This document shows, piece by piece, positions 1,909-50,360 of a stretch of DNA of 64,000 nucleotides. The translations under genes and the position numbers were made by a program. Every line of letters starts with the position of its first letter. Within the stretch, counting starts at the first letter, position 1. Below the pieces are notes generated by a model. It did not search any database, was not told where the DNA came from, and worked only from the letters and a program-made list of their open reading frames with translations. The stretch covers positions 1 through 64,000 of the forward strand of contig CADBDA010000006.1 of the NCBI GenBank assembly GCA_902793295.1, in the 5' to 3' direction. Origin of the DNA: an uncultured Bacteroidota bacterium. Lineage in GTDB: Bacteria; Bacteroidota; Bacteroidia; Bacteroidales; P3.

Positions 1909-3402
1909 ATGCTTACTAGTATTCACATTATAGGCATTTTGGTCACGATAGGGGTGCTCGTCGTCCTGGGCGTTTTGTCAGGAAGGAAGGTGCGCGACGC
2001 CCGAAGTTTTGTTGCAGGGGGCACTGCAGGATCCTGGATGGTGTGTGGTGCCATTCTGGGCACTTTGGTGGGTGGACAATCCACCATAGGCACTGCCCAG
2101 CTGGCCTTCTCGTTCGGCCTTTCGGCATGGTGGTTCACCATTGGTGCCGCCTTGGGTGCCTTGCTGTTGGGGCTGGTCTATGCCAAACCTATCCGCAGCA
2201 GCGGTTGTGTCACCTTGATGGAGATCGTGCGACAGCAGTACGGTCGGAAGGCCGAAACGGTGGGTTCGATACTTTTTCTGGTGGGAATCTTCATCAGTAT
2301 CACTTCGCAGCTGCTCTCGTCGTCGGCCCTGATTACGAGCCTGTCCGGCATACCGACATTCGTGGCGCTCGGCGTCAGTGCCCTGCTGGTAGCCTTGCTG
2401 GTTATTTTTGGCGGCATACGCAGTGCCGGCGCCAGTGGAATAGTGAAGCTGGTGCTGCTCTACATCTGTTCGCTGGCCAGTGGCATCGTGGTGTGGAAAA
2501 TCGGAGGCGGACTTGGTGGAATTGAGCACAGCATAGCGGATGTATATACCACTCCCGGGCTTGCCGAGATGAACGGCATGGACGACCTTGAGAGCATCCA
2601 TCAGCGCTATGGCAACCCTATAGCCCGTGGGCCGCTAAAAGACTTGGGCGGATGTCTGTCGTTGGTACTCGGCGTTGTCTGCACACAAACCTATGCGCAG
2701 GCCATTTGGTCGGCAGCCACCACAGAAAAGGCCCGACGCGGAGCGGTGCTGTGTGCGGCACTTATCCCGTTGATTGGTGCTGCCTGCACCCTTGTGGGCA
2801 TGTACATGCGCGGTCATTATGTGACGTCGGCCGAGATGGAGGCCTTGCGGCAGCAGGGCGAAGTGTTGCCCGAAGGCGTCGGCGTGCTGCAGAATTCCCT
2901 ACAGGCCTTCCCCACGTTTATTTTGACCAACCTTCCCGAGTGGTTGGGCGGCATTGCCCTGGGCACCCTGCTGATCAACGTGCTGGGTTGCGGCAGCGGG
3001 TTGGTGCTCGGAGCCGCCACCATCGTCACACGTGACGTGTGGCGGGTGGACTACAGCAACGGACGTCAGGCACTGCGTGCCATGCGCCTCACGATTGTCG
3101 CCATCCTGCTGTTGGGACTTGCCGTGGCCCACTTTGTGCGCGGTTCGTTCATCAATGATTTGGGCTTCCTTTCGCTCGGATTGCGAGCTGCGGCTTTGCT
3201 GCTCCCCTTGAGTTTCGCCCTGTGGTTGCCCGGTCGTTTCCGTTCGCGGGCTGTCATTCTTTCCATGGTGGCAGGTACGGCGGCTATGTTGGTAGCAGGC
3301 GTCCTATCGTTGGCGCCCGACCCCATGTATTATGGTCTGGCGGCATCGGCTATCGTGCTGTTTTCCACCAACAAGGCAAAGAATATTTCCTTGTCGGATT
3401 GA
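1909..3402 (+). CDS. Sodium:solute symporter (SSS) family transporter
   Basis: A 497-residue inner-membrane protein with about 13 predicted hydrophobic helices. It has the SSS-family N-terminal pattern: a first helix, a charged loop (SGRKVRDARSF), then a glycine/serine-rich segment (GAILGTLVGGQSTIGTAQLAF), where the sodium site is formed in characterised relatives. These proteins couple Na+ entry to uptake of sugars, amino acids, vitamins or organic acids; the substrate here cannot be told. The ATG at 1909 is chosen over 1864 because a promoter box lies between them and TTGGAG precedes 1909. The gene stands alone, convergent with aroE. Confidence 0.8.
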   Translation: MLTSIHIIGILVTIGVLVVLGVLSGRKVRDARSFVAGGTAGSWMVCGAILGTLVGGQSTIGTAQLAFSFGLSAWWFTIGAALGALLLGLVYAKPIRSSGCVTLMEIVRQQYGRKAETVGSILFLVGIFISITSQLLSSSALITSLSGIPTFVALGVSALLVALLVIFGGIRSAGASGIVKLVLLYICSLASGIVVWKIGGGLGGIEHSIADVYTTPGLAEMNGMDDLESIHQRYGNPIARGPLKDLGGCLSLVLGVVCTQTYAQAIWSAATTEKARRGAVLCAALIPLIGAACTLVGMYMRGHYVTSAEMEALRQQGEVLPEGVGVLQNSLQAFPTFILTNLPEWLGGIALGTLLINVLGCGSGLVLGAATIVTRDVWRVDYSNGRQALRAMRLTIVAILLLGLAVAHFVRGSFINDLGFLSLGLRAAALLLPLSFALWLPGRFRSRAVILSMVAGTAAMLVAGVLSLAPDPMYYGLAASAIVLFSTNKAKNISLSD

Positions 3403-3524: not shown

Positions 3525-4301
3525 TCAGGCCTGCCAGATGGTGTAGGCCATGTCGGCTTGCCGATGCAGCATGGCGAGGCCGTTGGCTGTTGCAGCGCCC
3601 CGTTCGGTGGCGTCGAGTAGGAAACGTGTCCTTTCGGGATTGTATATCAGGTCATAGCACAGATGCTTGGGGGTCAGCACTGCTGGTGTTTTCCAAGGGC
3701 TTTCTTCAGTGTGAGGATACATGCCCACGGGGGTGCAGTTGACGATGAGCAAATGGCTGTCGGCCAGCTGAAAGGCCTCGTCGTAGGCGACGGTATCGAT
3801 GCCCTGTCCGGCATGCTTCAAAGGCGTGCGGCTGACGAACCGATGGGCGATGCCCAACTGGCGTAGCGCCCAGGCAACCGCTTTCGAGGCCCCTCCCGTT
3901 CCCAGTATCAGCGCCTTGCGGTGCCAGTCGCGGAGCAACGGACGTAGCGTTTCGAGAAATGCCGGCGCGTCGGTGTTGTAGCCTATGAGCATCAGTTGGT
4001 TGTCGTGTCGAATCACCTTGACGGTGTTCACCGCCCCGATGGCGGCTGCGGTGGGGTCCACCTCGTCAAGCAGGTGCAGCATTTGCTCTTTGTAGGGAAT
4101 GGTGACGTTGAAGCCGTCCAATTGTAGCTCCTGAACCTTTTGGCGTAGCCCTGCCAGCGAGTCGAGCTCCAGAAGTCGATAGTTGTAGCCGTCGCTCTTC
4201 GAATTGGCAAATTTTGCATCGAAATAAGCTTTCGAAAAGGAGTGCGACAGCTTTTCGCCGACAAGGGCATAGTGATGGTCCGTATGTTCTAGTTGGTTCA
4301 T
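3525..4301 (-). CDS. aroE: Shikimate dehydrogenase
   Basis: A 258-residue enzyme predicted to reduce 3-dehydroshikimate to shikimate with NADPH, in the cytoplasmic chorismate pathway. Substrate-site motifs are present: GEKLSHSFS (15-23), NVTIPYK (65-71, catalytic Lys71) and GAVNT. The catalytic Asp111 lies in GYNTDAPAF. The NADP-binding glycine loop LGTGGASKAV spans about 133-142, and NCTPVGMYP is the conserved C-terminal motif. Length fits the slightly short AroE form common in Bacteroidota. It stands alone, convergent with the symporter gene and divergent from the rhomboid gene; the other aromatic genes are not in the window. Confidence 0.95.
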   Translation of the reverse strand: MNQLEHTDHHYALVGEKLSHSFSKAYFDAKFANSKSDGYNYRLLELDSLAGLRQKVQELQLDGFNVTIPYKEQMLHLLDEVDPTAAAIGAVNTVKVIRHDNQLMLIGYNTDAPAFLETLRPLLRDWHRKALILGTGGASKAVAWALRQLGIAHRFVSRTPLKHAGQGIDTVAYDEAFQLADSHLLIVNCTPVGMYPHTEESPWKTPAVLTPKHLCYDLIYNPERTRFLLDATERGAATANGLAMLHRQADMAYTIWQA

Positions 4302-32314: not shown

Positions 32315-33181
32315 ATGATAAAAAAGAAAGATTATAGCCCCGCCGAAAATCGGCCAAACCGCAGCAATTACGCCACCAACAATCGTTTTCATCAGAAGAA
32401 AAGTGAAGGTGGTGAAAACCAATCGTTTCACGTGAAACACCCCAAAGAATCGAAACTGCAGCTCGTTTGTGGTATTCGTCCTGTCATGGAGGCGATAGAT
32501 GCTGGAAAACAAATTGACCGTATTCTGATGCAGTCGAATTTGGAGGGTGCTTTGGCTCAGGAACTTAAGTCGAAAGCGCGCACGGCCAATCTGCCGGTGC
32601 AGTTCGTCCCGGCCGAGAAGTTGAACCGCATGACCGAAAGCAACCATCAGGGTGTGGTGGCAGTGGTGTCTCCAATCGTTTTTTATGATTTTATGGAATT
32701 GCTGCAACGTCTTGTGGATGAGGAAAAAACACCATTTGTTCTGATGCTTGACCATATTACCGATGTGCGCAATTTGGGTGCCATCGTCCGCACGGCGGAA
32801 TGTGCCGGTGTCGATGCTGTTGTGGTCCCCGATCATGGAAGCGCCCAGGTCAACGAGGATGCTATCAAGACTTCATCGGGCGCTTTGTTGCGTATGCCCA
32901 TGTGCCGCGAGTCAAACTTGAAAACGGCGGTTAATGTGGCCAAACAGTATGGTCTGCAGGTCTGTGCCGCAACAGAAAAAGGGGCAACCGACTATCTTGA
33001 GGTCGATTTCACCCAACCGACCCTGCTGGTCATGGGCGCTGAGGATTCCGGCATTTCGCCCGAACTGCTGCGCATGGCCGATGTGCCTGCCAAACTGCCT
33101 ATCCACGGTGAGGTCCAGTCGCTCAATGTCTCGGTGGCGGCTGCGGTATTCATGTACGAAATGTTGCGCCAGCGCCGATAG
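32315..33181 (+). CDS. rlmB: RlmB-type 23S rRNA 2'-O-ribose methyltransferase (TrmH family)
   Basis: 288 residues. A basic, Asn/Gln-rich N-terminal extension (1-45) precedes a substrate-binding domain (VCGIRPVMEAI start) and a SPOUT catalytic domain with knot motifs LDHITDVRNLGAIVRTAE, LVMGAEDSGIS and SLNVSVAAAV. The family methylates ribose of G2251 in 23S rRNA (RlmB) or related sites; exact target is inferred. Ends in a strong terminator at 33226. Confidence 0.88.
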   Translation: MIKKKDYSPAENRPNRSNYATNNRFHQKKSEGGENQSFHVKHPKESKLQLVCGIRPVMEAIDAGKQIDRILMQSNLEGALAQELKSKARTANLPVQFVPAEKLNRMTESNHQGVVAVVSPIVFYDFMELLQRLVDEEKTPFVLMLDHITDVRNLGAIVRTAECAGVDAVVVPDHGSAQVNEDAIKTSSGALLRMPMCRESNLKTAVNVAKQYGLQVCAATEKGATDYLEVDFTQPTLLVMGAEDSGISPELLRMADVPAKLPIHGEVQSLNVSVAAAVFMYEMLRQRR

Positions 33182-33545: not shown

Positions 33546-36500
33546 ATGAAAAAAAGGTCATTGCTACTCGGTCTGATTTCTCTGTTTTTGGCTTTTTCGG
33601 CCAACGCTCAGATCGTCACTAAGTACCAACAGGGATTTGAAACGGGCGAACCCGTCTCGTATCAGGTCACCTCTGGATCGGCAAGTCCGATTACGTCTCT
33701 GTACTCCTCGGGCAGCCGTTCGTTAAAAATGCAGCATGGAGCCACTGAAACCATTGTGCTCCTGGATACGCTTGACTTTACAGATAACGCCAGCTATACG
33801 GCCTATTATCTGGAGTTCATGCACATCTGCGATGTCGACCCGCTGACTTGTGCGTCGGCAACTGATGTGGCTATCATCGAGGTGATGCACCCCGGCGAAA
33901 GCAACTGGCATACACTGACCGACCAGGATTGCGACTTCACTTGGGGCGGTGGTAGTACTCACTTCCGCGACTACAGCTCCTACTCGCAGCGCGCTTACGA
34001 CCAGTGGATGGGCTCCGCAACCTCCAACACTTGGTGGAAACGCGAACGTTTCAGATTGGCCAACCGCATCAACGATGTGTCTGACCTCTCTCAGCGCAAA
34101 CTGCTGGTCCGCTTCCGTCTGAAACCTCGCACTGCTGCCGGTGCAACCAACTCCGGTTGGTATCTCGACAACATCACGGTCAAGTGCAGCCCCGAGTCGA
34201 TGGCCCTCCCCGTTGCCAAAATGATTGCTTACCCCGATGCTATGTCCTATCCGTGCAGTCGCGCCACCCGCATCGAGGTTGACCTGACCACCTCGGTGGC
34301 CGCCGGCATGTGCAACGACTCGGTCTATATCGACTACCAGTTGGGCCGCTTGGCTCCTATTCGCCGCATGACTATGACGCCGGTTCCTGGCCACGCGGGC
34401 CGCTACCGCTCCTTCATCCCCTTCTGCGGCTACGACACCGTCGTCTACTGGCGTATGGTTGCTATGGACAATACCGTGAACCACAACAAGACAACCTTCC
34501 CTCTTGATGAGTCGGGATGGCAACAGTATAAGAGTGTCCGTGGCGTCGAAGCTTTCCAGGAATTGGGTATTTGGAATACCGACCAGCCATCGTTGCCATC
34601 CAGCAACATCTTCCCGTTCCCCAACAAAGGTCTGCACAAAAGCCAAATGAGCTATAGCCAGGCGGAACTGCAAGCTGCAGGCTATGGCCCGGGTGCCATC
34701 ACCCAAATCCGATTCCCGGCCCGCTCGTCGGTGGTGAACTCCAACCACCAGCGTTTCGTCGTCGAAATGCGTAACATACCCAATGATTATGCCCTCCATG
34801 TGGATAACAAGTTCAACACAGAATACCATCGCACGGTTTACGACTCGTCTCTGAGTATCACCCAGAACTCGGGTACCTTTGGTATCATCAATTTCCAAGA
34901 TACGTTCTACTATGCCGGTGATGGACTGATGGTGACCATCACCTCGAAAAACACCACACAGAACCCTGCGGCACTAAGCGTTTCTACCTACACCTTCCCA
35001 GGCAATACATTGGGAACGCTCTATAAGAACTATGATTACAACTTGGGTAGCGACTTCGACCCGTTCAATAGTGCTTATTTCATGAATGGCGGTCGCGAAG
35101 CTCAGCGTCCTAGTTTCATGTTTAATGCCAACAAGAATATGCCACTGCTCTACGACTGTGGCATCAGTGGTTTTGTCACGCCCAACGACTCGGTGACCGC
35201 CAATGCGGTCGGCAACAACGATGTCACGGTGACGCTTAAAAACTACGGCGCCCAGCCCATCAATGCGGTACGTATCTACTACAGTGTGGATAATGGATCT
35301 GCCCAGTATTATGACTGGACGGGCACGCTGGCTGGCGGCGCCTCCACCAGTGTCACAATCAATACCACCCAAACCTATTCGGCTGGCTACCATGAAATGC
35401 TGGCATGGGTGGACGACTCGGTGACCACTGCCGGAATGCGCTACCGCGACCACGAACCGCTTAACGATACGCTGTGGACCCGCTTTGTGGCTTGTGACGG
35501 ACCGATGAGCGGTACCCGCTATGTGGGCGGCTCCACTCCCGACTATCAGTCGCTCGAGAAATTCCTCTATGCGGTCAGCCTTTGCGGTATCAATGGTCCG
35601 TTGACCGTCAAATTGGCTCCGGGCACCTATCGCCCTGTGGTATTCCCTTCCATTCCGGGAACGTCGGCAAGCAACTACGTCCTCTTCGAGCCGAGCAACA
35701 ATACTGGAAACAACAGCGTCATATTCGAGGCTTTGAACGATGCAAATACAACCATCACCCCATATCTGGTCAATTTGCAGCAGGCCAACCATATCCGCTT
35801 CAATAGAATTACCTTCAACAGCAGCGTGTCTGTGTCCAATGCGGCAAATTATCAGGTGCGTTTGGGTATCAACAGTACTGGTTGCCAGTTCAACAATTGT
35901 GACTTTCTTGAGGGCGGCAATAACGCCAACTTGTCGTATACCGTTGCTACTGCGTTGCTCTATTCTGGCGGCTGCGACTCCCTGACCGTAACCAATTGCC
36001 AGTTCTCTCGTGGTAGAGCAGGTATTAGTCTTGTGGGTCCCGCTGTCGACAATATGGCACACGGTAGTTATATCTATGGCAACAAATTCCTGCACCATGG
36101 TGTCAACGGTGTCATCATCCGCAATCAGGTGGGCACGGTTGTCGACAGCAACAGCTTCGACGATGTCTACGCCAACTCCAGCTACGTCATCTTGCTACAA
36201 GACTGCGCTGGTCCGACTAAGGTGACGCGCAACACGGTTTACGTCACTTCGGGCGCCTCCTGTCTCGGTGCCACCGGTTTCAACGGCTATGCCACCGACA
36301 ATGCGCTCATCGCTAACAATATGCTGGTGTCGAATGACGACGGTACCAGCAACATGTTGACCACCCCGCTCAATATCATCAACGCCGAATACACCAGGGT
36401 GCTCAACAACTCCATCAAGTTGGTGGCTCCTACACGTAGCGGTATCGCTGCCGCCACTTTCGGTGGTACGGCTATTAACAATAGTATGTTCTATAACAAC

Positions 36501-39500
36501 ATCGTTGCTTGTTTCGATACTGTCAATTTCGCCTTCAACTACATTCCTTCAACTAACGCTACTAATTATATTGGATACAATATTTATTATACTCGCGGAC
36601 CTATCCTCAACAAGTACGATGGTATTAACTGCCTGGCGCTTTCCAACTGGCAAGGTCACTACCCGTCGGATGCCAATTCACTGCAGGTGGATCCCGCCTA
36701 CCTCAACTCGACCAATACCGACCTGCGCTCCTACAGCCAGAATGTGAAGGGCCATGGTATGCACTTCGACCAGGTGACCGATGATATTTATGGCACCGAA
36801 CGCGACAGTGTGGCTCCCTGTATCGGTGCTTTCGAATTCTCGGCACTGCCTTACGACTTTGAGGTGATCGAGTTCATTGAACCTTTCGATGCTTATTGCG
36901 ATGCACCTTCGGCTGCTCCTATCAAGGTGGTCATCAAAAACAGCGGTATCAATGCTTATGACCCTGCCAACCAGACAATCCCGCTACAGTTGAGCTACTC
37001 CCGCACGGCTACTCCGGGTTCGATGGTTCCTGGCTTCTCGGGTATGGTGTCGGTCAACAGGGTGATTCCGGCCACCGATACCATCATCTTCAACACGGGT
37101 GTCACATTACCGTTCCTGCCCAATGGTTTGAACGATAGCACCTATCATCTTACTGTGTGGTTATCCTCACAGATCGACCCCAACCCGGCCAACGATACGA
37201 GCAGCACTACCGTGACCGCCCGCTATCATGCTCCGGCTCCGTCCAATGTCCAGGTCAATGCTAGCTACGGTGTGAACACTCCGGTAACGGCAAACGGCGG
37301 TTTGCAGACTTGGTACTCCAATGTCTATACCTCCAGCACTAGCCACCAGTCGGAGGTCTACTGGTTCACCAGCCCCACCAGCACAGAACCCATCTGGCGC
37401 GGACAGACCTATGTCACTGACCCGCTCTATACCGATACCACCTTCTATATTCGCCAGAAACGTGACTACCCCCTGGTTAAAATCTCTGAGGTGCAGCTTA
37501 AAAACAACATGCCGGGCGTGACATACCCCATGCCGCTGTGGATGAACGGTTCTACCGCAATGGCAGTTGAGTTGACCAACGTCGGTGACTATCCTGCCAA
37601 TCTGAAAGACGACTCGATCTATACCGTCAGCGGTACTTCGTCACTCAACAATAAATTCTACAAATTCCCCGATGTGACCATCCAACCTGGCCAGACGATC
37701 GTGTTGCAATATCGTAGCAGCATCAGTGTCGACTCTGCCGTGACGCTGGGTACGGCGACCATATCTCCCCAACTCACCGCCAATTTCGCCATCATTTATA
37801 AGAGCAAAGGCGTTATCATGGATGCTGTGGCTTTCAACGGCGTCACCACTCAAAACCAGTGGAACAACGCTCAGGTTCCCAACTACGTTTGGGCTGGCGA
37901 GGGTATCACCATCCCCGACACGGTCCAAACGGCTGGTGTCATCCGCACAGGATGGCCTACCGGTGGTACCCCGTCCAATAGCCGTCAGTATTGGTCACTG
38001 GCCGGAGACAACAACAAAATGACTCTGGGAACGACCAATAGCAACTTGATCCGCTTTGTCGATAATGGCTGTGAAGGCGATGTGGCTACGGTCCATATCC
38101 ATCTGATCAATCTGCCCGATGTCGACTTGGTGGTCGATAGTCTGGATGTGGCTTCGGGTTGCGGTCTGGGCATCGACACGCTTAGCGTGATGGTCTACAA
38201 CCGTGGCGCGTTGCCTAGCAACCAGGTGGTGATCCATTATGAGGCTGTCTCCAACCCGCTCTTCCCGGGCCAATCAATCGCTTTGCAGACTTGCAGCGAT
38301 ACTATCGCTAATATTCCGGGCGCTGCCACCTCGCTGCTTCATACCTTCTCGACCCCGCTCGATTTTACGGTCAGCCAGGGTTCTGTTAACTTCTCTCTCC
38401 GTGTGTGGGTAGAAAAGAACACCAATGATAATACGAACTTCAACGATACTTCCTATGCCGAATTCGTCTCCTCATTCACTCCCGGCATTCCCAATGTGTA
38501 TGGCTATGACACGGTGAATTACGGTGGACGCGCAGTGCTGCAGGCTATTGCCACCAACGACTCGTTGGCTTGGTATGACAGCAATATGCAGCCGCTCGAC
38601 ACGACGAATGTGTTCGTCTCTGACTATCTCTATGCTGACGACACTTTCTATGTCACTTCGTTCGGTACTCGCGAAAATCTGCTGCATGTTGGCCAGTTGG
38701 CTTCGCTCAACAGCGCCACGGCATATCCCTCGCCCTACAACCCCAACAAGAAATTCATCAAGGAACAGTATCTCTTTACTGCTCAGGATTTGATCAACGC
38801 CGGTCATGGCGCTGGTCCGATCAATTCTGTTTCGTTCTACCTCGACACGATTGTCGCTTCGGCCGGAACCATGACCTTCACTGACTATGTGGTCTCGATG
38901 GGTACCACTACCAACGATATTTTTGCCAACAACCACGACTGGCAGCCGGTGACTACATTCAGCACTATCGACACCCTGACGCTGAGCAACAGCACTCGCG
39001 GTTGGATCAAACATGTCTTTGATAGCGTTTTTGTGTGGGACGGCACGTCAAATATTGTGGTTCAAGTGACCCGCGCCATCGATCCTAACATCACTCAGGG
39101 TGCCCGTACCCGCTATACAGCCGCTGGCAATAACAAGGTGCTCTACAAAAATGGTACCACTTCGCTTGTGAACAGCACTGACAACGGCTCGCGTAGCCCC
39201 AACCGTCCTGATATCCGCTTCGGTTTCGTTGACTTTGGCTGCGAGGGTCCGGCCAAACCGGTGTATGTGACTATCGTGGGTATGCCTCCTGCAGATGCTG
39301 CTCTGTCGCTGCCCGATGGCAACGACACGGTAACCTATTCCTCTTGTGGCAATATCAATATCGATATGAAGTTGAGCAATTTTGGTACGGCTCCTATTTC
39401 TGCTTACACTGTCAACTATTGGATCGATGGTGTGGCAGGTTCCTATGCGGGTTCCAGTTCCGTGGCTTCCCACCAGTCGGCTACGGTAACCATCGCGCAG

Positions 39501-42500
39501 CCTTCGCTCACTCCGGGACGCCACTTCATCAAGGCTGTAGTCTCTGTTGCCGGCGATACCGTGCCTACCAACGACACCGTGACGAACCTCATCAACGTGC
39601 GTTTTTGCGCCGGTACCTACACGATTGGCTCCACGGGCTTGTTCCCCGATTTCACCACTGCTATCGATACGTTGGTCAATGCAGGTATTGATGGCCCCGT
39701 GGTGTTCTCAGTCCAGAACGGCACCTACCAAGAACAATTGAGCTTGGGCGCAGTTGATGGCTCATCTGCTACCAATACCATCACCTTCCGTAGCGCTTCG
39801 CGCAACAGCGACGATGTGATATTGAGACATACTCCGGCCAATGGCTCGAACTATGTGCTCAGCATCGATGGCGCCAGTTTCGTGGCATTCGAACATATTA
39901 CCCTCTACAGTACGGGCGCCACTTATTCTAATGTGGTCGATGTGGCCAATAGCCGTAACATCCACTTCACAGGCGATGTGATCCGTGTGAAGGGTACGGT
40001 GAACAATACCAATGGCAATGGCGTTATCATTGGCGAAGGCGTCAATTTCCTCTATATCGACAGCTGTGTGATCGATAGCGGCTACTGCGGTGTGCGTAGC
40101 ACTGTTAGCGCTATGGGTCTCACCGAAGGAGTCTTCATCAATAACAACAGCATCCAGAACTTCCTCTCGCAGGGTATTGCCTTGCGCAAGGTGAACGATG
40201 TGTATGTGGTACACAACCAAGTGCGTTCGGGCGTCAATATCAACAACCGTTCGCTCACGGGTATCTTCATTGCCGAACATAACGGACCGGTGTCTGTCGA
40301 ACGCAACAATGTGGTGCTGAGCGATAACCGTTCGGGTGGAAAGCAGTGTATCAAGCTGGTTAACATCAACGGATCCAATGCCACCAGAAGCCATGTCTAC
40401 AACAATATGGCAGCTTCCTATGGCTCGGCTACCGCCGGTCAGACCTCGTGCGGCATCTGGATCGACAGCTCTTCGTGGATTAATGTTTACTACAACACTT
40501 GCCAGGTGTATGCTGGTTTGACAAATGCAGCTGCTGGTACGCGTGCTTTCAGCGTTGAAACGACAAGTTCGGGCATCTACGCTATGAACAACCTCTTTTC
40601 CAACATCAGCCGCGGCTATGCTTTCTATGTGAAACAGGCTGCCAATATCGGCAATACCAACTATAATAACTATTGGACCAACTCTTCGAGCCGTCTTGCT
40701 TTCTGGAGCGGTACGGAATGTGCTTCCTTCGAGGAATTGCAGGCTGCAGACGGTATGGATGTCAACTCGGTCCACAAACAGACCTACTTCATCTCCAATG
40801 AAGACCTCCACCTCTCGGTCGGTACCTTCTGCGAATTGGCTCAGTACAACACCGAGGTGCCTGTCGACATCGACGACACCATTCGTCCGCAGATTCCTAA
40901 CCCCTGTATGGGTGCCCACGAATTCCAGCGTTCCACCCACAATGTGGCTGTGCTTGACGTGCTGGAACCGACAATCGATATCGAATTGGGCGTGACCGAC
41001 AACATCGAGGGCGATCCCTTGAAGGTGAAGGTGAAATTGATGAACGATGGTACTTCTACCGAAAACAACGTTGTGTGGTGGGCCGAAATCCTCAACGCTT
41101 CGCCGGCCTTGACTTCGCCGCAGCGCACTATCGAAGAAATCATGCCGCAGGAGGAGGTCTACGACTCTACTGTCATCAATATGCCTATTGGCATTATCGA
41201 TACGCAGTATGTCGTCATCCACCTGGAACTGCTCAACGATGCCGTTCCTGAAAACAACACATTGGTAGCACCCTTCTTCCTCGACCCGGCCTTCAACATC
41301 AAGACCGACTCGGTGACGGTGTTCAAGGGCGATGGCTGCCGTAAACAGGAAACCCCTGTGTCGGTCAACTTCAAGAATGTGGGTCGCAAACCTATTGCAG
41401 CTGGTACTGTCGTCAGCATCGGCTTCCAAGCGGTTCTCGGCACTACGGGTGTCACGGTCTCCACGCTGCCTGTCCAGTGGGTCGAAAATGCCACCATTCC
41501 TTACGACATCGAAGTAAACGCTTCAGGTACGCTCAATTTCACTACCATGGCTAACCTCTACCCGACGGGAATCCATAAGGATATCAATGTCCGTTGCCGT
41601 GCCTGGGCTACCCATCCCCACGACCAGAAACCGTTGAACGACACGAGTACTTTCATCACTGTGCCGTCCAAGTTCACTCCTGAGGCTCCGGTGGGAATCA
41701 ATCTCCAAATACCTTATGCTACTTGGGATACAATCTTCGCTTCGGAAACAAACCAGGATCCGGTCAACAACAATGATATCCATCGCCCCATTCGTTGGCA
41801 TCGCGATTCGACCGACGTTCCTTTCTACAGCCCCAACAATTATGCAACGTCATGCTGGTGGGAAACTCCTCAGTACTTCCACGATTCCACCTACTACCTC
41901 AGCTGCATCAGCAATTCGGGTTGCACCAGCTACTACAGCCCGGTCCACGTGATGCTGAATCCTCGTGTGCCGGTCGATATGGCTGTGCTCAATGTGGTGG
42001 AACCGCAGCCTCGCATGGTCTACATGCTCGACGACTCGGTCAAGATTTCGCTTATCAACTATGGCTCGCAGCCTGTGTCCAATATCCCTGTTGTCTACCA
42101 GCTGTTCAGCCCGACCAATGTGCTGTTGCAGGAAGTGCGTGAGATCTGTCCCGTCACTATCCAGCCCGACCAGGTGTATGTCTACAAGTTCGACTCCCTG
42201 ATCCATATTCCGCAATGGTCGTACAATTCCTATCGCATCCGCACATGGACGGACATGACCAACGAGAATGTCCGTTTGAACGATACCCTGCGCGGTGGAT
42301 ATCAGTTCCAGGCTGTTCCTGACAATGAATACACCATCGCTGGCATCAGCGCTAAAACGGGTCTTGATATCACTCGCGTGGCATTCAGTTCGCTCGACAA
42401 CAATATCGCGCCCGTGGGCTTCACCTATCTGAATTTTGTCAATGCTACCAATTCGACTGCAAACATTGGCTTGGGCGACATGGTGTTGACTGAGGCTGGT

Positions 42501-45479
42501 GCCATCGCTACTCCCAGCTTGATTTACGACGGCGTTCAGGATTATGGTGGCAGTGTTTCCATGCAGGGTGTCGGTCAGCTCCGCGCATTGCATGTGGTCA
42601 AGGGTACCAACGATACCATGATTGTGGAATGCGCCAACACTGACCGTTCGAACGATTACAGCACCGGCGGTTGGCTGACTGTCTTCATCGACCAAGATCG
42701 TGATGGCTTCTTCTCGTTCTTCCCTGAAGAAATCGGCGATTCGCTCAACTATAGCTATCCCTACACCGAGATTGTCTACCACGACAGTATCAAGAGTAAC
42801 ACCCCGCTAAGATTCCCCTTCACCATCCCCGAAACCATGCGTACGGGTTACACCCGCATGCGTGTCATGCTGAATCAGGCTGCGGTGCATCCTACGTCCT
42901 CTTATAAGACAATGCAGTTCGGTCAGGTTCAGGACTACCTGCTCTATGTCGAGGATCGTCCGACCGATGTCGATATCTGTGCCGCTCGTATCGATTCGCC
43001 CACCAGTCAGTTCATCGGCGGCCACACAGGCCTTGGTGGCGATACTGCTGTGACGGTACGCTTCCGTATGGCCAACAAGGGCGCTTTGGCAATCAACTCT
43101 GCGGTTATCACTTACCAGTTTATCCATCCCGATTCCAATGAGGGTGCGCAGACCCTGCAATGGGCCGGTACGCTCGACAAGGGCGCCAGTGTCTCTGTCG
43201 CGTTGCCGCCGCATGTATTCCCAGTGGGTACCACCGAATTGATGATCGTGGTCTCCGCTGCGGGCGACACCAATGCGACCAACGACACGCTCATCTACCA
43301 GTTCCACCGCTCCAAAGTGCTGACACTGATCTACAGAGAACAGTTCGAAGAACAGGATATATGGTTCGCTCCTCGTGGCAACTCGGCCTACACTCAAAAC
43401 GTATGGCAGCGCGGCTACCCGCAAAAAGTCAATATCATGGCTTGTGTCAGCGACTCGAATGTGTGGGCTACCAATTTGAACGGCTATATCAACACCTATC
43501 AGACGGGTACCCGTAGCATTCTCTACACGCCTATCATCGATATCTCGACCATCAAGGCGGATACGATGACCATTTGGGTGGCTACCGACATGCCTGAAGG
43601 CCATCTGTTGAATATTGAGTATTGTGACTATCTCGGCCGTTGGAATGTGATGGGCTCTGCCAACGACAGCAACTGGTATAATGTTGCTGGTGGCTGGGGC
43701 GATGTCAGTTCAGGCTATGGCTACTCACAGTTCAGTTTCCCGATCTCGAAGGTGAGCGGTAACTTCCAGCAATACGTCCAGTTCCGCTTCATCTATAGTG
43801 CCACGACCGAATCGCAGGCTTGCGATGGTGCTGCTTTCGACGACCTGATCATCGGTCGCCAACGCCGCAATATCGATGCCAGCGTCGTCGATATCATTTA
43901 TCCTACCGAACCGCGTTTCGGACAGATAATCAATCCTACGGTGATCCTCTACAATCATGGCTACGATACGCTCTACAATGTGCCGCTGGCTTACATGCCC
44001 TATGGCTCCTTCCTGCCTAAGACGGGCACTTTCGAAGGCGTCCTGCTCCCGCGTGGTACGGCGACCTACACCTTCCCGACTCCGTTTGTGGTCATGAACG
44101 ACTTCCCCGACACCTTCACCATCTGCTCTTTCACCACAATCAATATGGATATGTATCGTGACAATGATACCGTCTGCAAGGAGTTCTACCTGACCCCACT
44201 TGACAATGATATGGCTATGGTCAGCTTCCTCTCTCCGATGCAGCGCGTCATTGCTGGTGATTCGATCCAGGTGTCTACACGTCTGCGTAACTATGGACAG
44301 GCTCCGGTGCAGTCGGCTCAGGTGACTTACGTTATCAATGAAGATTTCTCAGTGACCGAAACCATCGACTTCGAGGAGGCTTTGGGCCATCCGCTGGGTT
44401 CGTTCGAGTATTTCAACTATACCTTCCACGACAAATTCAGGGCTACCATGGGTCTCATGAACCTGACTGCCTATGTGGCTATGGCCAACGATGACTATCT
44501 GTTCAACGATACTATCATCCTCGATTTGAATGGAATCTCGGCTATCACCGACCTCCAAGCCACCGATATCGTCGTCGATACGTCCGACCACTACTACACG
44601 GTGATCCAGCTTACAATTGACAATGTGGGCGCTCGCGCTGTCTCTGACTTTGACGCCGGATTCTGGTACTACAACGATACCAACCGCATCGTGAAGGCTC
44701 ACATCCATCTCGATCCTCCGCTGGCGGCACTCTCCCGACTCTACTATCGTTTCGACACCTTGCTGCCTCATCATGCCGAACTCTATCGTAACGTTGTCGC
44801 CTACGTCCATGTGGATGGCGATAATGATATGAGCAACGATACTACGACTCGTATCGTGACGCAGACATTCGACATGATGGCTGTTCAGGTCGAGGTAGAG
44901 GAAAATCGTGAAGAGGATTGCAACGTGCGTTTGCGTATTGAGAATATTGGAAATAGGGTCTTCGCCAACTCTATGGATATCTTTGCCACCATCAACGGTA
45001 CGTCAATCCGTCGTATGCAGATTCGTCCGGTGGTGCCTCCGGGAGAGACCTTCGTGTTCACTTTCCCGGACAAGGTGCCGAAGAGCCCCACTCGTACCTA
45101 TTCTGGTTACGGCCGTGTGGTTTGCCAGGGCGACAAGAATCCTGACAACAACGAAACGAGCGACATTGTTGTGTTGAACTATTTCGAACCCGACGGTATT
45201 CCTGTGGCTCCCTCCAAGAATGGTATGGTGCTGCAGCAGAACTACCCCAACCCGTTCAACAACACCACTCGCATCGACTTCTTCCTGCCTTTCAGCGGTC
45301 ATGTCAGCTTCTTTGTGATGGACGAGATGGGCCGTCTGGTCTTCCAGCGGAACGACAGCTATAGTGCTGGCGACCACTCCATCGACTTCAACGACGCTTC
45401 GCTGCCGTCGGGTGTCTACTACTACGGCATCGAGATGAACGGCGAACGCTTGATGCGAAAGATGGTTCTGAAACGCTGA
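33546..45479 (+). CDS. Giant secreted mosaic protein with T9SS type A sorting domain
   Basis: 3977 residues. Signal peptide 1-21 (ends SANA-Q). MAM/jelly-roll-like N-terminal module (about 24-220). Right-handed beta-helix-like regions at about 658-1099 and 2021-2460. Lamin-tail-like module about 1312-1512. GEVED-like module about 2915-3138 (DQDRDGFFS ... FGQVQDYLLYV). A second jelly-roll-like module at about 3260-3450. About twelve CARDB-like modules begin NxG (near 566, 1133, 1553, 1945, 2500, 2611, 2839, 3177, 3470, 3582, 3693, 3800), several ending NDT. The C-terminal 80 residues are a T9SS type A sorting domain (QNYPNPFNNTTRI ... GVYYYGIE ... KMVLKR). It is expected to cross the outer membrane through T9SS and stay on the surface or be released. 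No catalytic motif is evident; adhesion or a structural role is inferred. It is 32 bases from tilS. Confidence 0.88.
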   Translation: MKKRSLLLGLISLFLAFSANAQIVTKYQQGFETGEPVSYQVTSGSASPITSLYSSGSRSLKMQHGATETIVLLDTLDFTDNASYTAYYLEFMHICDVDPLTCASATDVAIIEVMHPGESNWHTLTDQDCDFTWGGGSTHFRDYSSYSQRAYDQWMGSATSNTWWKRERFRLANRINDVSDLSQRKLLVRFRLKPRTAAGATNSGWYLDNITVKCSPESMALPVAKMIAYPDAMSYPCSRATRIEVDLTTSVAAGMCNDSVYIDYQLGRLAPIRRMTMTPVPGHAGRYRSFIPFCGYDTVVYWRMVAMDNTVNHNKTTFPLDESGWQQYKSVRGVEAFQELGIWNTDQPSLPSSNIFPFPNKGLHKSQMSYSQAELQAAGYGPGAITQIRFPARSSVVNSNHQRFVVEMRNIPNDYALHVDNKFNTEYHRTVYDSSLSITQNSGTFGIINFQDTFYYAGDGLMVTITSKNTTQNPAALSVSTYTFPGNTLGTLYKNYDYNLGSDFDPFNSAYFMNGGREAQRPSFMFNANKNMPLLYDCGISGFVTPNDSVTANAVGNNDVTVTLKNYGAQPINAVRIYYSVDNGSAQYYDWTGTLAGGASTSVTINTTQTYSAGYHEMLAWVDDSVTTAGMRYRDHEPLNDTLWTRFVACDGPMSGTRYVGGSTPDYQSLEKFLYAVSLCGINGPLTVKLAPGTYRPVVFPSIPGTSASNYVLFEPSNNTGNNSVIFEALNDANTTITPYLVNLQQANHIRFNRITFNSSVSVSNAANYQVRLGINSTGCQFNNCDFLEGGNNANLSYTVATALLYSGGCDSLTVTNCQFSRGRAGISLVGPAVDNMAHGSYIYGNKFLHHGVNGVIIRNQVGTVVDSNSFDDVYANSSYVILLQDCAGPTKVTRNTVYVTSGASCLGATGFNGYATDNALIANNMLVSNDDGTSNMLTTPLNIINAEYTRVLNNSIKLVAPTRSGIAAATFGGTAINNSMFYNNIVACFDTVNFAFNYIPSTNATNYIGYNIYYTRGPILNKYDGINCLALSNWQGHYPSDANSLQVDPAYLNSTNTDLRSYSQNVKGHGMHFDQVTDDIYGTERDSVAPCIGAFEFSALPYDFEVIEFIEPFDAYCDAPSAAPIKVVIKNSGINAYDPANQTIPLQLSYSRTATPGSMVPGFSGMVSVNRVIPATDTIIFNTGVTLPFLPNGLNDSTYHLTVWLSSQIDPNPANDTSSTTVTARYHAPAPSNVQVNASYGVNTPVTANGGLQTWYSNVYTSSTSHQSEVYWFTSPTSTEPIWRGQTYVTDPLYTDTTFYIRQKRDYPLVKISEVQLKNNMPGVTYPMPLWMNGSTAMAVELTNVGDYPANLKDDSIYTVSGTSSLNNKFYKFPDVTIQPGQTIVLQYRSSISVDSAVTLGTATISPQLTANFAIIYKSKGVIMDAVAFNGVTTQNQWNNAQVPNYVWAGEGITIPDTVQTAGVIRTGWPTGGTPSNSRQYWSLAGDNNKMTLGTTNSNLIRFVDNGCEGDVATVHIHLINLPDVDLVVDSLDVASGCGLGIDTLSVMVYNRGALPSNQVVIHYEAVSNPLFPGQSIALQTCSDTIANIPGAATSLLHTFSTPLDFTVSQGSVNFSLRVWVEKNTNDNTNFNDTSYAEFVSSFTPGIPNVYGYDTVNYGGRAVLQAIATNDSLAWYDSNMQPLDTTNVFVSDYLYADDTFYVTSFGTRENLLHVGQLASLNSATAYPSPYNPNKKFIKEQYLFTAQDLINAGHGAGPINSVSFYLDTIVASAGTMTFTDYVVSMGTTTNDIFANNHDWQPVTTFSTIDTLTLSNSTRGWIKHVFDSVFVWDGTSNIVVQVTRAIDPNITQGARTRYTAAGNNKVLYKNGTTSLVNSTDNGSRSPNRPDIRFGFVDFGCEGPAKPVYVTIVGMPPADAALSLPDGNDTVTYSSCGNINIDMKLSNFGTAPISAYTVNYWIDGVAGSYAGSSSVASHQSATVTIAQPSLTPGRHFIKAVVSVAGDTVPTNDTVTNLINVRFCAGTYTIGSTGLFPDFTTAIDTLVNAGIDGPVVFSVQNGTYQEQLSLGAVDGSSATNTITFRSASRNSDDVILRHTPANGSNYVLSIDGASFVAFEHITLYSTGATYSNVVDVANSRNIHFTGDVIRVKGTVNNTNGNGVIIGEGVNFLYIDSCVIDSGYCGVRSTVSAMGLTEGVFINNNSIQNFLSQGIALRKVNDVYVVHNQVRSGVNINNRSLTGIFIAEHNGPVSVERNNVVLSDNRSGGKQCIKLVNINGSNATRSHVYNNMAASYGSATAGQTSCGIWIDSSSWINVYYNTCQVYAGLTNAAAGTRAFSVETTSSGIYAMNNLFSNISRGYAFYVKQAANIGNTNYNNYWTNSSSRLAFWSGTECASFEELQAADGMDVNSVHKQTYFISNEDLHLSVGTFCELAQYNTEVPVDIDDTIRPQIPNPCMGAHEFQRSTHNVAVLDVLEPTIDIELGVTDNIEGDPLKVKVKLMNDGTSTENNVVWWAEILNASPALTSPQRTIEEIMPQEEVYDSTVINMPIGIIDTQYVVIHLELLNDAVPENNTLVAPFFLDPAFNIKTDSVTVFKGDGCRKQETPVSVNFKNVGRKPIAAGTVVSIGFQAVLGTTGVTVSTLPVQWVENATIPYDIEVNASGTLNFTTMANLYPTGIHKDINVRCRAWATHPHDQKPLNDTSTFITVPSKFTPEAPVGINLQIPYATWDTIFASETNQDPVNNNDIHRPIRWHRDSTDVPFYSPNNYATSCWWETPQYFHDSTYYLSCISNSGCTSYYSPVHVMLNPRVPVDMAVLNVVEPQPRMVYMLDDSVKISLINYGSQPVSNIPVVYQLFSPTNVLLQEVREICPVTIQPDQVYVYKFDSLIHIPQWSYNSYRIRTWTDMTNENVRLNDTLRGGYQFQAVPDNEYTIAGISAKTGLDITRVAFSSLDNNIAPVGFTYLNFVNATNSTANIGLGDMVLTEAGAIATPSLIYDGVQDYGGSVSMQGVGQLRALHVVKGTNDTMIVECANTDRSNDYSTGGWLTVFIDQDRDGFFSFFPEEIGDSLNYSYPYTEIVYHDSIKSNTPLRFPFTIPETMRTGYTRMRVMLNQAAVHPTSSYKTMQFGQVQDYLLYVEDRPTDVDICAARIDSPTSQFIGGHTGLGGDTAVTVRFRMANKGALAINSAVITYQFIHPDSNEGAQTLQWAGTLDKGASVSVALPPHVFPVGTTELMIVVSAAGDTNATNDTLIYQFHRSKVLTLIYREQFEEQDIWFAPRGNSAYTQNVWQRGYPQKVNIMACVSDSNVWATNLNGYINTYQTGTRSILYTPIIDISTIKADTMTIWVATDMPEGHLLNIEYCDYLGRWNVMGSANDSNWYNVAGGWGDVSSGYGYSQFSFPISKVSGNFQQYVQFRFIYSATTESQACDGAAFDDLIIGRQRRNIDASVVDIIYPTEPRFGQIINPTVILYNHGYDTLYNVPLAYMPYGSFLPKTGTFEGVLLPRGTATYTFPTPFVVMNDFPDTFTICSFTTINMDMYRDNDTVCKEFYLTPLDNDMAMVSFLSPMQRVIAGDSIQVSTRLRNYGQAPVQSAQVTYVINEDFSVTETIDFEEALGHPLGSFEYFNYTFHDKFRATMGLMNLTAYVAMANDDYLFNDTIILDLNGISAITDLQATDIVVDTSDHYYTVIQLTIDNVGARAVSDFDAGFWYYNDTNRIVKAHIHLDPPLAALSRLYYRFDTLLPHHAELYRNVVAYVHVDGDNDMSNDTTTRIVTQTFDMMAVQVEVEENREEDCNVRLRIENIGNRVFANSMDIFATINGTSIRRMQIRPVVPPGETFVFTFPDKVPKSPTRTYSGYGRVVCQGDKNPDNNETSDIVVLNYFEPDGIPVAPSKNGMVLQQNYPNPFNNTTRIDFFLPFSGHVSFFVMDEMGRLVFQRNDSYSAGDHSIDFNDASLPSGVYYYGIEMNGERLMRKMVLKR

Positions 45480-45511: not shown

Positions 45512-46846
45512 ATGCTGAATCGTTTTTTGGACTATATCCGCAAGGAGCACTTGATTGCCTCTGGGCAGCAGGTGCTCCTTGCTGTCAGTGGCGGTCGCGA
45601 CTCGGTGGCAATGGCGTCGCTGATGGCTCGTAGCGGCAATCCGTTTGCCATTGCCCATTGCAACTTCCATTTGCGGCCGGGCGACTGCGACCGCGACGAG
45701 GCTTTTGTGCGTGCCCTTGCCGAACGGCTGGGGGTGCGTTGTTTCGTGGCTCAGTTCGACACATTGGCCCTTGTCCGCTCCGAACGGCTTTCGGTCGAGG
45801 AGGCGGCACGCAATTTGCGCTATGCCTTCTTCGACGAGGTGATGGATCGCGAGGGGTTCGATTGTGTCGCCACAGCCCATCATCGTGACGATGCTGTCGA
45901 GACGTTTTTCATCAATTTGCTGCGCGGAGCTGGTATTGGTGGCCTGCATGGCATCCTTCCTCGCAACGGGCGTGTGGTGCGTCCGATGCTCTGCTTCTGT
46001 CGCGACGAGATCGACGCTTATGTGAAATCGCAGAAGTTGGATTTTGTGGAGGATGTCACCAACGCGGAGCCGCTCTATCTGCGCAATCGTATCCGGCTGC
46101 AGTTGCTGCCCTTGCTGCGTTCGCTGTCGCCGTCGTTCGATGCAACGATGCAGGGCAATTTGGAACACTTGCGCGAGGCGGATGCGCTCTATCGGCAGGC
46201 GGTGGATCGGGCTTGTAAGGAGGTGCTCATCCACGAGGGAGATGGCTTCCACTTGGATATCACAGCTTTGCAAAAACAGACTGCACCGGCTACCATTCTT
46301 TTTGAACTGCTGCGTCCTTTCGGTTTTTCATCGGCCATGATGCCTCAGATTGTCGATTCGCTCGACGGACAGAGTGGTGCGGTCTTCCTTTCACCTACCC
46401 ATCGGTTGCTTAAAGACCGCCAATCGTTGTTGCTGTTGCCTCTCGATGGGGATTCCGATGGTGATGCCTCCTTTGAATTGCAGCCACAGTGTCGGTCGAT
46501 AGAGCATCCGCTGCCGATGCGTTTCGATTGCCTCCCTGTGGGCGAATGCCGACTGAAGGTGCCCCCCCAGAAGGCTTGCTTTGACTACGACAGGTTGCGG
46601 TTTCCGCTGCATCTGCGTCGTTGGCGTATGGGCGACCGTTTCCGTCCGTTTGGCATGAGGGGGTCGCGCTTGGTCAGCGACCTGTTGGTCGATGCCAAAC
46701 TGAGTCGTGAGGCGAAAAAGAAGGTCTGGCTGTTGTGCGATGCCGACGACCGTATCCTCTGGGTGGTCGGATTGCGTGCGGCGTCGGTGGCGTCAGTGGA
46801 TGGCTCGACATGTCGCGTTTTTACTGCTGCAATCAGTAACTCATGA
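45512..46846 (+). CDS. tilS: tRNA(Ile)-lysidine synthetase
   Basis: 444 residues. Converts C34 of the CAU-anticodon tRNA(Ile) to lysidine so that it reads AUA; normally essential. The PP-loop SGGRDS (26-31) is intact. HCNFHLRPGDCDRDE and ATAHHRDDAVETFFINLLRG follow the family consensus, and a C-terminal substrate domain (about 370-440) has LRRWRMGDRFRPFGM. The stop codon region overlaps the convergent plug-protein gene by 14 bases. Confidence 0.95.
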   Translation: MLNRFLDYIRKEHLIASGQQVLLAVSGGRDSVAMASLMARSGNPFAIAHCNFHLRPGDCDRDEAFVRALAERLGVRCFVAQFDTLALVRSERLSVEEAARNLRYAFFDEVMDREGFDCVATAHHRDDAVETFFINLLRGAGIGGLHGILPRNGRVVRPMLCFCRDEIDAYVKSQKLDFVEDVTNAEPLYLRNRIRLQLLPLLRSLSPSFDATMQGNLEHLREADALYRQAVDRACKEVLIHEGDGFHLDITALQKQTAPATILFELLRPFGFSSAMMPQIVDSLDGQSGAVFLSPTHRLLKDRQSLLLLPLDGDSDGDASFELQPQCRSIEHPLPMRFDCLPVGECRLKVPPQKACFDYDRLRFPLHLRRWRMGDRFRPFGMRGSRLVSDLLVDAKLSREAKKKVWLLCDADDRILWVVGLRAASVASVDGSTCRVFTAAISNS

Positions 46847-48198: not shown

Positions 48199-48870
48199 AT
48201 GAATCTTGCACTGATAGGATACGGAAAAATGGGCCATGCCATCGAATCGTTGGCGCTGGAACGTGGTCATGCAGTAGTCTGCACGATCGACAATATTCAA
48301 GAATGGGAATCCAAGCAGGACTTGTTGCGTCATGCCGATGTGGCGGTCGAGTTCACCATGCCGTCCATTGCGGCCGACAATATTCGGCGTTGTCTTAATG
48401 CGAACATCCCCGTGGTTTGCGGCACAACCGGCTGGTACGACGCCTACGACGATGTCGTTGCTCTCTGCCAGACCAAACAGGGTGCGCTGTTCACTGCCAC
48501 CAATTTCAGTATTGGAATGAATATCATGTTTGCCTTGAACGAGCATTTGGACCGCTTGATGGCCAACCTTCCGGAATACCGCGTGGGAATCACCGAAATC
48601 CACCATATCCACAAGCTTGATGCCCCCAGTGGCACGGCAATAACCCTGCGGCAGCAGATCCATCGTGACGATGTGCCTATCGAGTCGATTCGCGAAGGCG
48701 AGGTTCCTGGCACCCATACGGTGCGCTACGACAGCGAAATCGACACCATCAGCCTGACCCACGAGGCGCATAGCCGCAAGGGGCTAGCCTTGGGCGCCTT
48801 GCTTGCTGCCGAATTCCTGAAGGACCGAAAGGGGGTCTTCACAATGAAGGATATGCTTGCTATGAATTGA
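48199..48870 (+). CDS. dapB: 4-hydroxy-tetrahydrodipicolinate reductase
   Basis: 223 residues. NAD(P)H-dependent step of the diaminopimelate/lysine pathway. N-terminal dinucleotide motif GYGKMGHAIE, then CGTTGW, and the catalytic/substrate block EIHHIHKLDAPSGTA with its His-His and Lys. Short DapB form, as usual in Bacteroidota. ATG at 48199 is chosen because the conserved N-terminus starts there; a longer frame runs far upstream into the opposite gene. 11 bases from the fucosidase gene. Confidence 0.95.
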   Translation: MNLALIGYGKMGHAIESLALERGHAVVCTIDNIQEWESKQDLLRHADVAVEFTMPSIAADNIRRCLNANIPVVCGTTGWYDAYDDVVALCQTKQGALFTATNFSIGMNIMFALNEHLDRLMANLPEYRVGITEIHHIHKLDAPSGTAITLRQQIHRDDVPIESIREGEVPGTHTVRYDSEIDTISLTHEAHSRKGLALGALLAAEFLKDRKGVFTMKDMLAMN

Positions 48871-48881
48871 TTTGTTATCTG

Positions 48882-50360
48882 ATGATGTCGCTGCCGAACT
48901 GTCGATTGTTACGATGGCCTCTGGGCTTTGCCCTGATGTCGCTGGTCGTATTGTTTTGCGGTTGCCGCTCGGTGCGTCCGCCCGAGCCTTTCGGTGCGTG
49001 TCCTTCTCCCGCTCAGTTGCAGTGGCAGCGCATGGAGATGAATATGTTTTGCCATTTCGGGCCCAATACCTTCACTGGGCGCGAGTGGGGTGACGGCCGT
49101 GAACCGGATTCGCTGTTTCAGCCTTTGGCGCTCGATTGTCGCCAATGGGCAGCCGTCGCTAAGGCTGCCGGTATGCGGGGCATTATCCTTACGGCCAAAC
49201 ACCACGATGGGTATTGCCTGTGGCCAACCCGAACGAGTGTTCACTCGGTGTCGGCTAGTCCGTGGCGCAATGGGACGGGCGACGTCCTGTCGGAACTGCG
49301 TCGGGCGTGCGATGCTTACGGCCTTTCAATGGGTGTCTATATATCTCCTTGGGATCGCAATCATCCCGCCTATGGTACGTCCGGCTACAACGATGTCTTC
49401 GCGGCTACGCTTAGTGAGGTGCATCAGGCCTACGGACCGCTTTTCGAGCAGTGGCTTGACGGCGCCAACGGCGAAGGGCCCGACGGCAAACGTCAGCGCT
49501 ACGACTGGCCCTTGTTCCACCGGTCGGTCTATGCGTTCAGTCCCCAGGCGGTCATCTTCAGTGATGTCGGACCAGGATGCCGCTGGGTGGGCAACGAAGA
49601 GGGTAGGGCAGGGGAGACTTGCTGGTCCACCCTCAACACCGAAGGCTTTGCGCCTGGTGCCGAGGCACCGCCGACTGATACCCTTGGCCACGGCAATTGC
49701 AGAGGTTCCCACTGGGTACCTGCCGAAGTTGATGTCAGCATTCGTCCTGGCTGGTTCTATCACGACAGCGAACAGCCCAAGTCTTTGCAGCGACTGCTCG
49801 AAATCTATTATGCCAGTGTGGGACGCAATGCGTTGCTTCTGCTCAATGTCCCACCCGATCGTAGGGGCCTGATACCGGCATCCGATTCGCTGCGTCTGGT
49901 GGAATTCCGTGCGGCGCTCGATACCATCTTTGGTGTCGATTTGGCGGCTGGCGCCATGGCCGAAGCCTCCCATGTGCGGGGCTGCAAGTCAGCGTTGTAT
50001 GGCCCGCAACACTTGTTGGACACTACCTACCATAACTATTGGGCTGTAGACGATTCGGCTTGTTCACCCGTCGTGACACTCTCCTTCCCCCATCTGGTCA
50101 CATTCAATCGTGTCATGCTGCAAGAGTATATCCCGTTGGGCCAACGGGTGGAGTCCTATCATCTCGACTACCAGTCCGCCGACGGATGCTGGCATCCGCT
50201 TGCCGAGGCCACCACCATCGGCTACAAACGCATCCTTCTGACCCCCACAGTTACAGCCCGCGCAGTTCGGCTCACTATCGATCGTTCGCTAGCCTGCCCC
50301 ATCATCAACCGCCTGGCGTTGTTCAGGGACACTGTTTACACCCCTCCTGTCAGTGATTGA
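48882..50360 (+). CDS. GH29 alpha-L-fucosidase lipoprotein
   Basis: 492 residues. Exported lipoprotein with Arg-rich start, hydrophobic stretch and Cys28 in FCGC as likely lipid site; no acidic export signal follows (CRSVRPPEP). GH29 catalytic region: FCHFGPNTFTGREWG, ILTAKHHDGYCLWPT and the nucleophile Asp in EQWLDGANG. The C-terminal about 130 residues (from DSACSPVVTLSFP) form a discoidin-type carbohydrate-binding domain, as in many fucosidases. Releases terminal fucose from glycans; not in a visible PUL. Start: ATG at 48882 (or 48885); the TTG at 48867 is less likely. Follows dapB by 11 bases. Confidence 0.9.
   Translation: MMSLPNCRLLRWPLGFALMSLVVLFCGCRSVRPPEPFGACPSPAQLQWQRMEMNMFCHFGPNTFTGREWGDGREPDSLFQPLALDCRQWAAVAKAAGMRGIILTAKHHDGYCLWPTRTSVHSVSASPWRNGTGDVLSELRRACDAYGLSMGVYISPWDRNHPAYGTSGYNDVFAATLSEVHQAYGPLFEQWLDGANGEGPDGKRQRYDWPLFHRSVYAFSPQAVIFSDVGPGCRWVGNEEGRAGETCWSTLNTEGFAPGAEAPPTDTLGHGNCRGSHWVPAEVDVSIRPGWFYHDSEQPKSLQRLLEIYYASVGRNALLLLNVPPDRRGLIPASDSLRLVEFRAALDTIFGVDLAAGAMAEASHVRGCKSALYGPQHLLDTTYHNYWAVDDSACSPVVTLSFPHLVTFNRVMLQEYIPLGQRVESYHLDYQSADGCWHPLAEATTIGYKRILLTPTVTARAVRLTIDRSLACPIINRLALFRDTVYTPPVSD

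Follow-up and report, generated by a model that had tools for sequence, protein, structure and literature searches.

A giant predicted T9SS cargo protein with near-constant module number and order in a family of uncultured Bacteroidales

Locus and module map of the giant

The window analysed here, a stretch of 64,000 nucleotides from an uncultured Bacteroidales bacterium, contains a giant gene for a predicted T9SS type A cargo protein, which occupies one open frame without interruption (33546..45479, + strand, 3,977 aa). It is flanked by two neighbours conserved by synteny, rlmB upstream (32315..33181, +) and tilS downstream (45512..46846, +). The first-pass annotation of this DNA had itself raised a split of the frame as a concern. 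Since uninterrupted single frames of 3,826-4,178 aa occur in about 50 independent genomes, a frameshift, an assembly error or a fused-gene artefact could be ruled out and was rejected as an explanation. The same annotation called the size extreme for the window and placed the giant next to a T9SS plug gene. In the genus the size is not extreme, as other frames there reach 6,806 aa. We found that tilS sits between giant and plug and that the two lie on different contigs in the sister-genus genomes checked, so that proximity to plug says little about the function of the giant. Together with the T9SS-positive genomes that lack the giant (below), this led us to reject linkage to plug as a guide to its function, and the significance implied for this neighbour is unsupported. 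An alpha-L-fucosidase family protein that also carries an F5/8 type C domain is encoded at 48867-50360, two genes from plug. A search of a plasmid collection gave no match.

The protein resolves into 23 modules: twelve CARDB-like modules, two MAM-like modules, two beta-helices, three Ig_7 domains, a lone n3 domain, an FN3-like segment, a GEVED region and the sorting tail. All features given here lie on the + strand. Behind the signal peptide (33546..33608; MKKRSLLLGLISLFLAFSANA before Q) come MAM/choice-of-anchor-like module 1 (aa 22-221, 33609..34208), which has no Pfam match of its own, the FN3-like segment n2 (aa 222-341, 34209..34568), a putative fold assignment for a segment that matched no database family, and the first copy of n3 (aa 343-535, 34572..35150). 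These are followed by CARDB module 1 (aa 533-650, 35142..35495), beta-helix 1 (aa 648-1101, 35487..36848), CARDB module 2 (aa 1102-1226, 36849..37223), an Ig_7 domain that encloses a lamin-tail domain (aa 1222-1518, 37209..38099), CARDB module 3 (aa 1519-1643, 38100..38474), a second Ig_7 domain that encloses another copy of n3 (aa 1640-1914, 38463..39287), CARDB module 4 (aa 1915-2018, 39288..39599) and beta-helix 2 (aa 2015-2463, 39588..40934). The C-terminal half continues with CARDB modules 5 (aa 2464-2575, 40935..41270) and 6 (aa 2579-2705, 41280..41660), the third Ig_7 domain (aa 2703-2808, 41652..41969), CARDB module 7 (aa 2808-2926, 41967..42323), the GEVED region (aa 2923-3150, 42312..42995; Pfam core 3044-3133), CARDB module 8 (aa 3149-3256, 42990..43313) and MAM/choice-of-anchor-like module 2 (aa 3250-3440, 43293..43865). 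CARDB modules 9-12 stand in tandem (aa 3440-3550, 3553-3662, 3663-3772 and 3773-3888; 43863..45209) before the T9SS type A C-terminal sorting domain (aa 3889-3977, 45210..45476).

Relationships among the modules

The modules were compared in an alignment of 42 full-length orthologues (41 fetched, plus the window protein), cut into 23 segments that were run against one another as profiles (hhalign). The twelve CARDB segments matched each other at 67-100% probability, mostly at ≥95, and scored 0-10% against all other segments, three values apart (two of 35-36%, one of 16%). By this profile comparison, the twelve CARDB-like modules are one family. Pairing was also obtained for the two MAM-like modules (96%), the two beta-helices (100%), the three Ig segments (96-98%) and the first n3 with the segment at 1640-1914 (100%). 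Direct matches to Pfam CARDB (PF07705) in a scan of the whole protein cover three stretches only, and the other modules were joined to these through profile-profile comparison. Pfam CARDB E-values were 5.6e-4 for module 1 and 0.001 for module 4. The earlier estimate of about twelve CARDB-like modules is thereby borne out at exactly twelve, and the possibility it had weighed against itself, domain searches that find no such repeats, did not materialise, as Pfam found CARDB and the profiles joined all twelve.

The interleaved beta-helix, lamin-tail and GEVED modules that had been read from the letters are likewise backed by Pfam in the giant, in its orthologues or in both. GEVED (PF20009) was matched at 2.2e-10 and 1.4e-12, the lamin-tail domain (LTD) at 6e-6 together with its Ig_7 host, and Ig_7 also in the second and third Ig segments. 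A scan of 27 orthologues recovered LTD in 20/27, Ig_7 in 21/27 (the domain with the lamin-tail insert) and 15/27, Beta_helix in 4/27 (beta-helix 1) and 3/27 (beta-helix 2), InhA-like_MAM in 2/27 (MAM-like module 2), CARDB in 26/27 (the C-terminal region, modules 9-12) and the sorting tail in all 27. Searching PDB sequence profiles with the modules of the giant gave a single match, between beta-helix 2 and a solved cell-wall-anchored surface protein (3zpp, E 8e-6). NCBIfam matches of the giant to T9SSA_dep_M6i and M36 were discarded, as they reflect merely the shared sorting tail. No Pfam or NCBIfam model matched n3 (aa 343-535), and with its two copies in the giant we regard it as a candidate new domain family. 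It also appears in other large proteins of the genus, where secondary matches fall on query residues 1672-1928, that is, on the second copy.

Two short motifs had been proposed to mark the repeats. N.G occurs at 566, 1132, 1552, 1945, 2500, 2611, 2838, 3177, 3470, 3582, 3693 and 3800, within one residue of all twelve places suggested, but N.G alone is not enriched (28 in the giant vs 22.9 ± 4.3 in shuffles). NDT, by contrast with its shuffles, is enriched (13 vs 1.9 ± 1.3, maximum 8 in 1,000 shuffles) and, as had been noted, often closes the segments: 10 of the 12 CARDB modules end in it, with module 5 ending in NNT and module 12 in NNE. In the orthologues, both motifs rank with the best conserved columns. 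Structure models were of low confidence, with a mean pLDDT of 47 for CARDB4-betahelix2-CARDB5 (4-row alignment) and of 38 for MAM2-CARDB9-12-CTD (2-row alignment). Within the former, the core of CARDB module 4 reached a pLDDT of 72-79 and was placed near 2l0d and 3idu by Foldseek at a non-significant E of 0.02-0.05; Foldseek with the low-confidence model as a whole returned nothing below E 0.001.

Conservation, inheritance and loss

We searched 59 genomes of the genus with 2,985 residues of the giant; the full-length matches run from query residue 1 to about 2,960. A full-length, co-linear giant was present in 48 of the 59 genomes, in frames of 3,891-4,039 aa, and fragments were present in three more. 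One contig (G053:C52:1989-5087) holds a second, partial copy of the N-terminal quarter at 61% identity, which may represent duplication or contamination. Within the family, the giant was found in most genera (g2, g3, g4, g5, g10 and g12), and no full-length copy was found in g6, g7, g8, g9 and g11. The 42 aligned giants measure 3,959 ± 61 aa, while their identity to the window protein ranges from 75% down to 25%. Profiles built from the genus only recovered the module string MFNCBCICICBCCICGCMCCCCT in distant orthologues, with an N to I change of label where n3 was caught by the Ig(n3) profile, and missed one module in each of five distant proteins. Conservation is evenly spread along the whole chain. 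The first-pass annotation had asked whether module order is conserved in relatives, and a single order holds down to 25% identity. Judged from these alignments, the number and order of modules are almost unchanged across the whole family, a constancy that is unusual because long surface proteins normally vary quickly between species.

The giant precedes tilS in the genus, in g2 and in g5, and comes after rlmB in all cases where that gene was identified. Identity of the giant to the window copy runs close to that of tilS (e.g., 58 and 58, 45 and 48, 37 and 42). Trees of its N-part and C-part have 12 of 14 splits in common. Of the 11 splits with good support in the rlmB+tilS tree, each of the two contains 10, and distances in one part correlate with those in the other (r = 0.98); on account of these matching splits and distances, module shuffling is not seen. 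By synteny and phylogeny, the giant is an old, single-copy, vertically inherited orthologue.

In three genomes (G014, G041 and G050), rlmB is directly joined to tilS and the giant is absent. These three and G038 group in a single clade (support 1.0) that sits within giant-bearing lineages, for which reason one clean loss is the simplest account. The genomes of this clade retain plug as well as 51-67 sorting tails of type A. Since one clade lost the giant and kept the T9SS, the giant would be a cargo of the system and not part of its machinery; among these relatives it is not present wherever the T9SS is, as machinery would be. Four further genomes without the giant (G010, G032, G042 and G055) are less complete, miss tilS as well and are uninformative on loss. 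Two members of the loss clade carry, beside lolD and on its ruvB side, a pair of ORFs whose ends resemble T9SS tails (1018/891 and 684/682 aa; L076 6935-12060 and L077 6872-11609).

As comparators, we took two further giants from the genus, one of 5,396 aa (G016) and one of 4,424 aa (G046), and searched the same 59 genomes with their N-terminal 2,950 aa. Neither had a full-length relative in any other genome, and their partial matches lie in frames of 574 to 6,806 aa. Because these two comparators are without full-length relatives, fixed architecture is not general to the giants of the genus. The longest frames with partial similarity to them measure 6,805 and 6,806 aa (G011:C4 and G039:C25).

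Outside the family, profiles A1 and A2 detected no full-length orthologue among the genomes searched, 295 from the order and 247 from the class. Other families of the order do have related giants (L079-L086), which measure 3.3-3.8 thousand residues, with several per genome in G220, G283 and others. These giants share a near-identical module order and the same end cassette, CARDB-GEVED-CARDB-MAM-CARDB-CARDB-CTD, and differ from the window giant in their multi-copy genomes, a variable number of beta-helix/Ig units and fewer C-terminal CARDB modules. The nearly identical order in these families suggests that the module grammar probably predates the family; single copy and a fixed number of modules are, in this comparison, features of the giant's own family.

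Predicted export, proposed role and alternatives

Read from its sequence and conservation, the giant begins with a Sec signal peptide (a signal peptide had also been noted in the first reading), and the MKK...AQ pattern is kept in its orthologues with Q22 invariant. Its tail scores above the curated cut-offs for both TIGR04183 (26.6 vs 23 bits) and PF18962 (31.2 vs 27 bits), which confirms the T9SS type A sorting domain, and the tail is recovered in 27/27 orthologues. The same genome encodes a plug protein (309 bits), a PorU sortase (945 bits vs a cut-off of 420) and about 50 type A sorting tails. Taken together, the giant is by every testable sequence feature a T9SS type A cargo and is probably exported to the cell surface. 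Like the type A cargo of P. gingivalis type, it has a signal peptide, a type A domain and PorU in the genome; it differs from such cargo in being very large and in having no peptidase or other enzyme domain. The description of the protein as a rod-like surface cargo thus stands with respect to cargo, while the rod is the most likely shape on domain content only, the structure models being of low confidence.

We favour, at a probability of roughly 0.55, a reading in which the giant is a surface rod of fixed length with a C-terminal anchor, displaying its beta-helix and MAM-like modules as candidate ligand-binding sites. As judged from the protein families, Sec would export the giant and the T9SS would carry it across the outer membrane, where PorU would remove the C-terminal domain and link the protein to anionic LPS with its N-terminus pointing outward, as described for type A cargo (PorU cleavage, then A-LPS linkage; PMC10202324). 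The CARDB, Ig_7 and GEVED modules would act as spacers; with domains of typical size, the estimate for the fully extended rod is on the order of 100 nm. Ligands, most likely glycans or other surface polymers, would be bound by the two beta-helices and the two MAM/jelly-roll-like modules, held at fixed intervals, and through this binding the protein would attach to a host, to a fibre or to another cell. That modules keep the same number and order suggests a need for correct spacing and a target that is old and stable, not one under immune or phage pressure. A more far-reaching version can be offered only tentatively: the giant could be a single-polypeptide surface ruler of 23 modules, with strong purifying selection on its length and module order throughout the family and with multi-copy variants elsewhere in the order. 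If so, there would be a class of giant surface proteins that behaves like a housekeeping gene and not like a variable adhesin.

Among known systems, the giant resembles the fibrillar adhesins (Monzon, Bateman and co-workers; PMC8286594, PMC9210967) in its long multidomain chain, its repeated Ig-like stalk, its GEVED domain, which was defined in fibrillar adhesins (PMC10952558), and its anchor of the T9SS-tail type, Por_Secre_tail being counted as a cell-surface anchor (PMC8286594). It is threonine-rich as they are (9.2% T), and its 12 CARDB and 3 Ig_7 modules would serve as repeated stalk domains. Fibrillar adhesins, however, are described as evolving fast and varying in repeat number ('periscope proteins'; PMC8286594, PMC9210967), and this variable stalk, typical though not strictly defining, contrasts with the fixed number and order in the giant. 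No known adhesive family was recognised among the Pfam matches over the whole protein, as judged independently of the published 27-family list, and its beta-helices and MAM-like modules are candidate adhesive domains only. With neither a recognised adhesive domain nor a variable stalk, the giant should not be filed as a proven fibrillar adhesin. CshA-type adhesins also carry a single GEVED domain in a multi-domain surface protein (PMC10952558). The CshA ligand-binding domain NR2 is reported to have a downstream GEVED as its constant partner (PMC10952558), whereas the giant has no NR2-like match and a CARDB module plus an unassigned stretch precede its GEVED. Our literature search found no paper that links CARDB with the T9SS.

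Enzymes that degrade polysaccharides are also found among beta-helix families. Polysaccharide processing, with the beta-helices as lyase- or esterase-like catalytic modules and the rest of the chain as carbohydrate-binding parts and spacers, would accommodate the two right-handed beta-helices, the weak scores of a few orthologues against CBM_2/CBM_3 and the nearby alpha-L-fucosidase gene. Yet no enzyme family was matched in the giant or in the 27 orthologues, the invariant beta-helix residues are mainly structural (Asn, Gly, Phe and Cys), and the enzymes that Foldseek matched were non-significant hits obtained with a poor model, so we consider this reading improbable. Slightly better placed, though still unlikely, is a surface coat in which many copies of the rod, packed laterally, form a layer or matrix as thick as their fixed length dictates, binding of outside ligands being secondary. 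The even conservation of a chain that keeps its length and order at 25% identity, the single copy, vertical inheritance and the known service of the T9SS in S-layer formation (PMC10202324) all agree with a coat, but the several related giants of differing length per genome in other families fit a set of adhesins better, and one clade lost the giant outright.

A role as an accessory T9SS or gliding part, comparable to that of SprB, is suggested by the very large size of this predicted T9SS-exported protein and by the plug gene two genes downstream. The SprB and RemA gliding adhesins of Flavobacterium johnsoniae, which we compared by description and not by sequence, are likewise giant or large surface proteins exported by the T9SS. 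SprB, however, has a type B tail and needs SprF (PMC10202324), whereas the giant has a type A tail and is dispensable in a T9SS-positive clade. As giant-less genomes retain plug and about 50 sorting domains, and plug and giant lie on separate contigs in the sister-genus genomes checked, such a role is largely refuted and we give it very little credence. Least credible of all is the view of the giant as an ordinary mosaic adhesin that evolves fast and seems conserved only because the genomes sampled are closely related. Most of the relatives searched do belong to one genus, but length and order hold while identity drops to 25-28%, and two other giants have no full-length relative in the same 59 genomes, a comparison that refutes it.

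The usual view of giant modular surface proteins is that they are lineage-specific adhesins subject to rapid shuffling. Returning to the fixed-length binding rod that we prefer, the first-pass description of the giant was right on its main points, and the giant is more interesting for its constancy than for its size: about 4,000 residues keep 23 modules in order down to 25% identity, both halves track the species tree, and the protein is lost only as a whole. With such constancy one can ask what determines how long a surface rod is and how its modules are ordered, and can search for an old ligand common to a large group of uncultured Bacteroidales. For the annotation of proteins now merely labelled 'T9SS sorting domain-containing', the giant also offers a domain template in which at least one unannotated domain occurs twice.

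One possible partner candidate lies beside the giant in other genera. A small secreted protein of about 145 aa, with the pattern 'SCQIIET.IKD..Y.NFTI.G.GYLSY', adjoins or lies near the start of the giant in g3, g4 and g10 and is kept there (L059 2938-3402; L062 3095-3520; L060 16239-16700; L065 16123-16557; L066 15987-16424; L069 2781-3218; L071 16526-16960).
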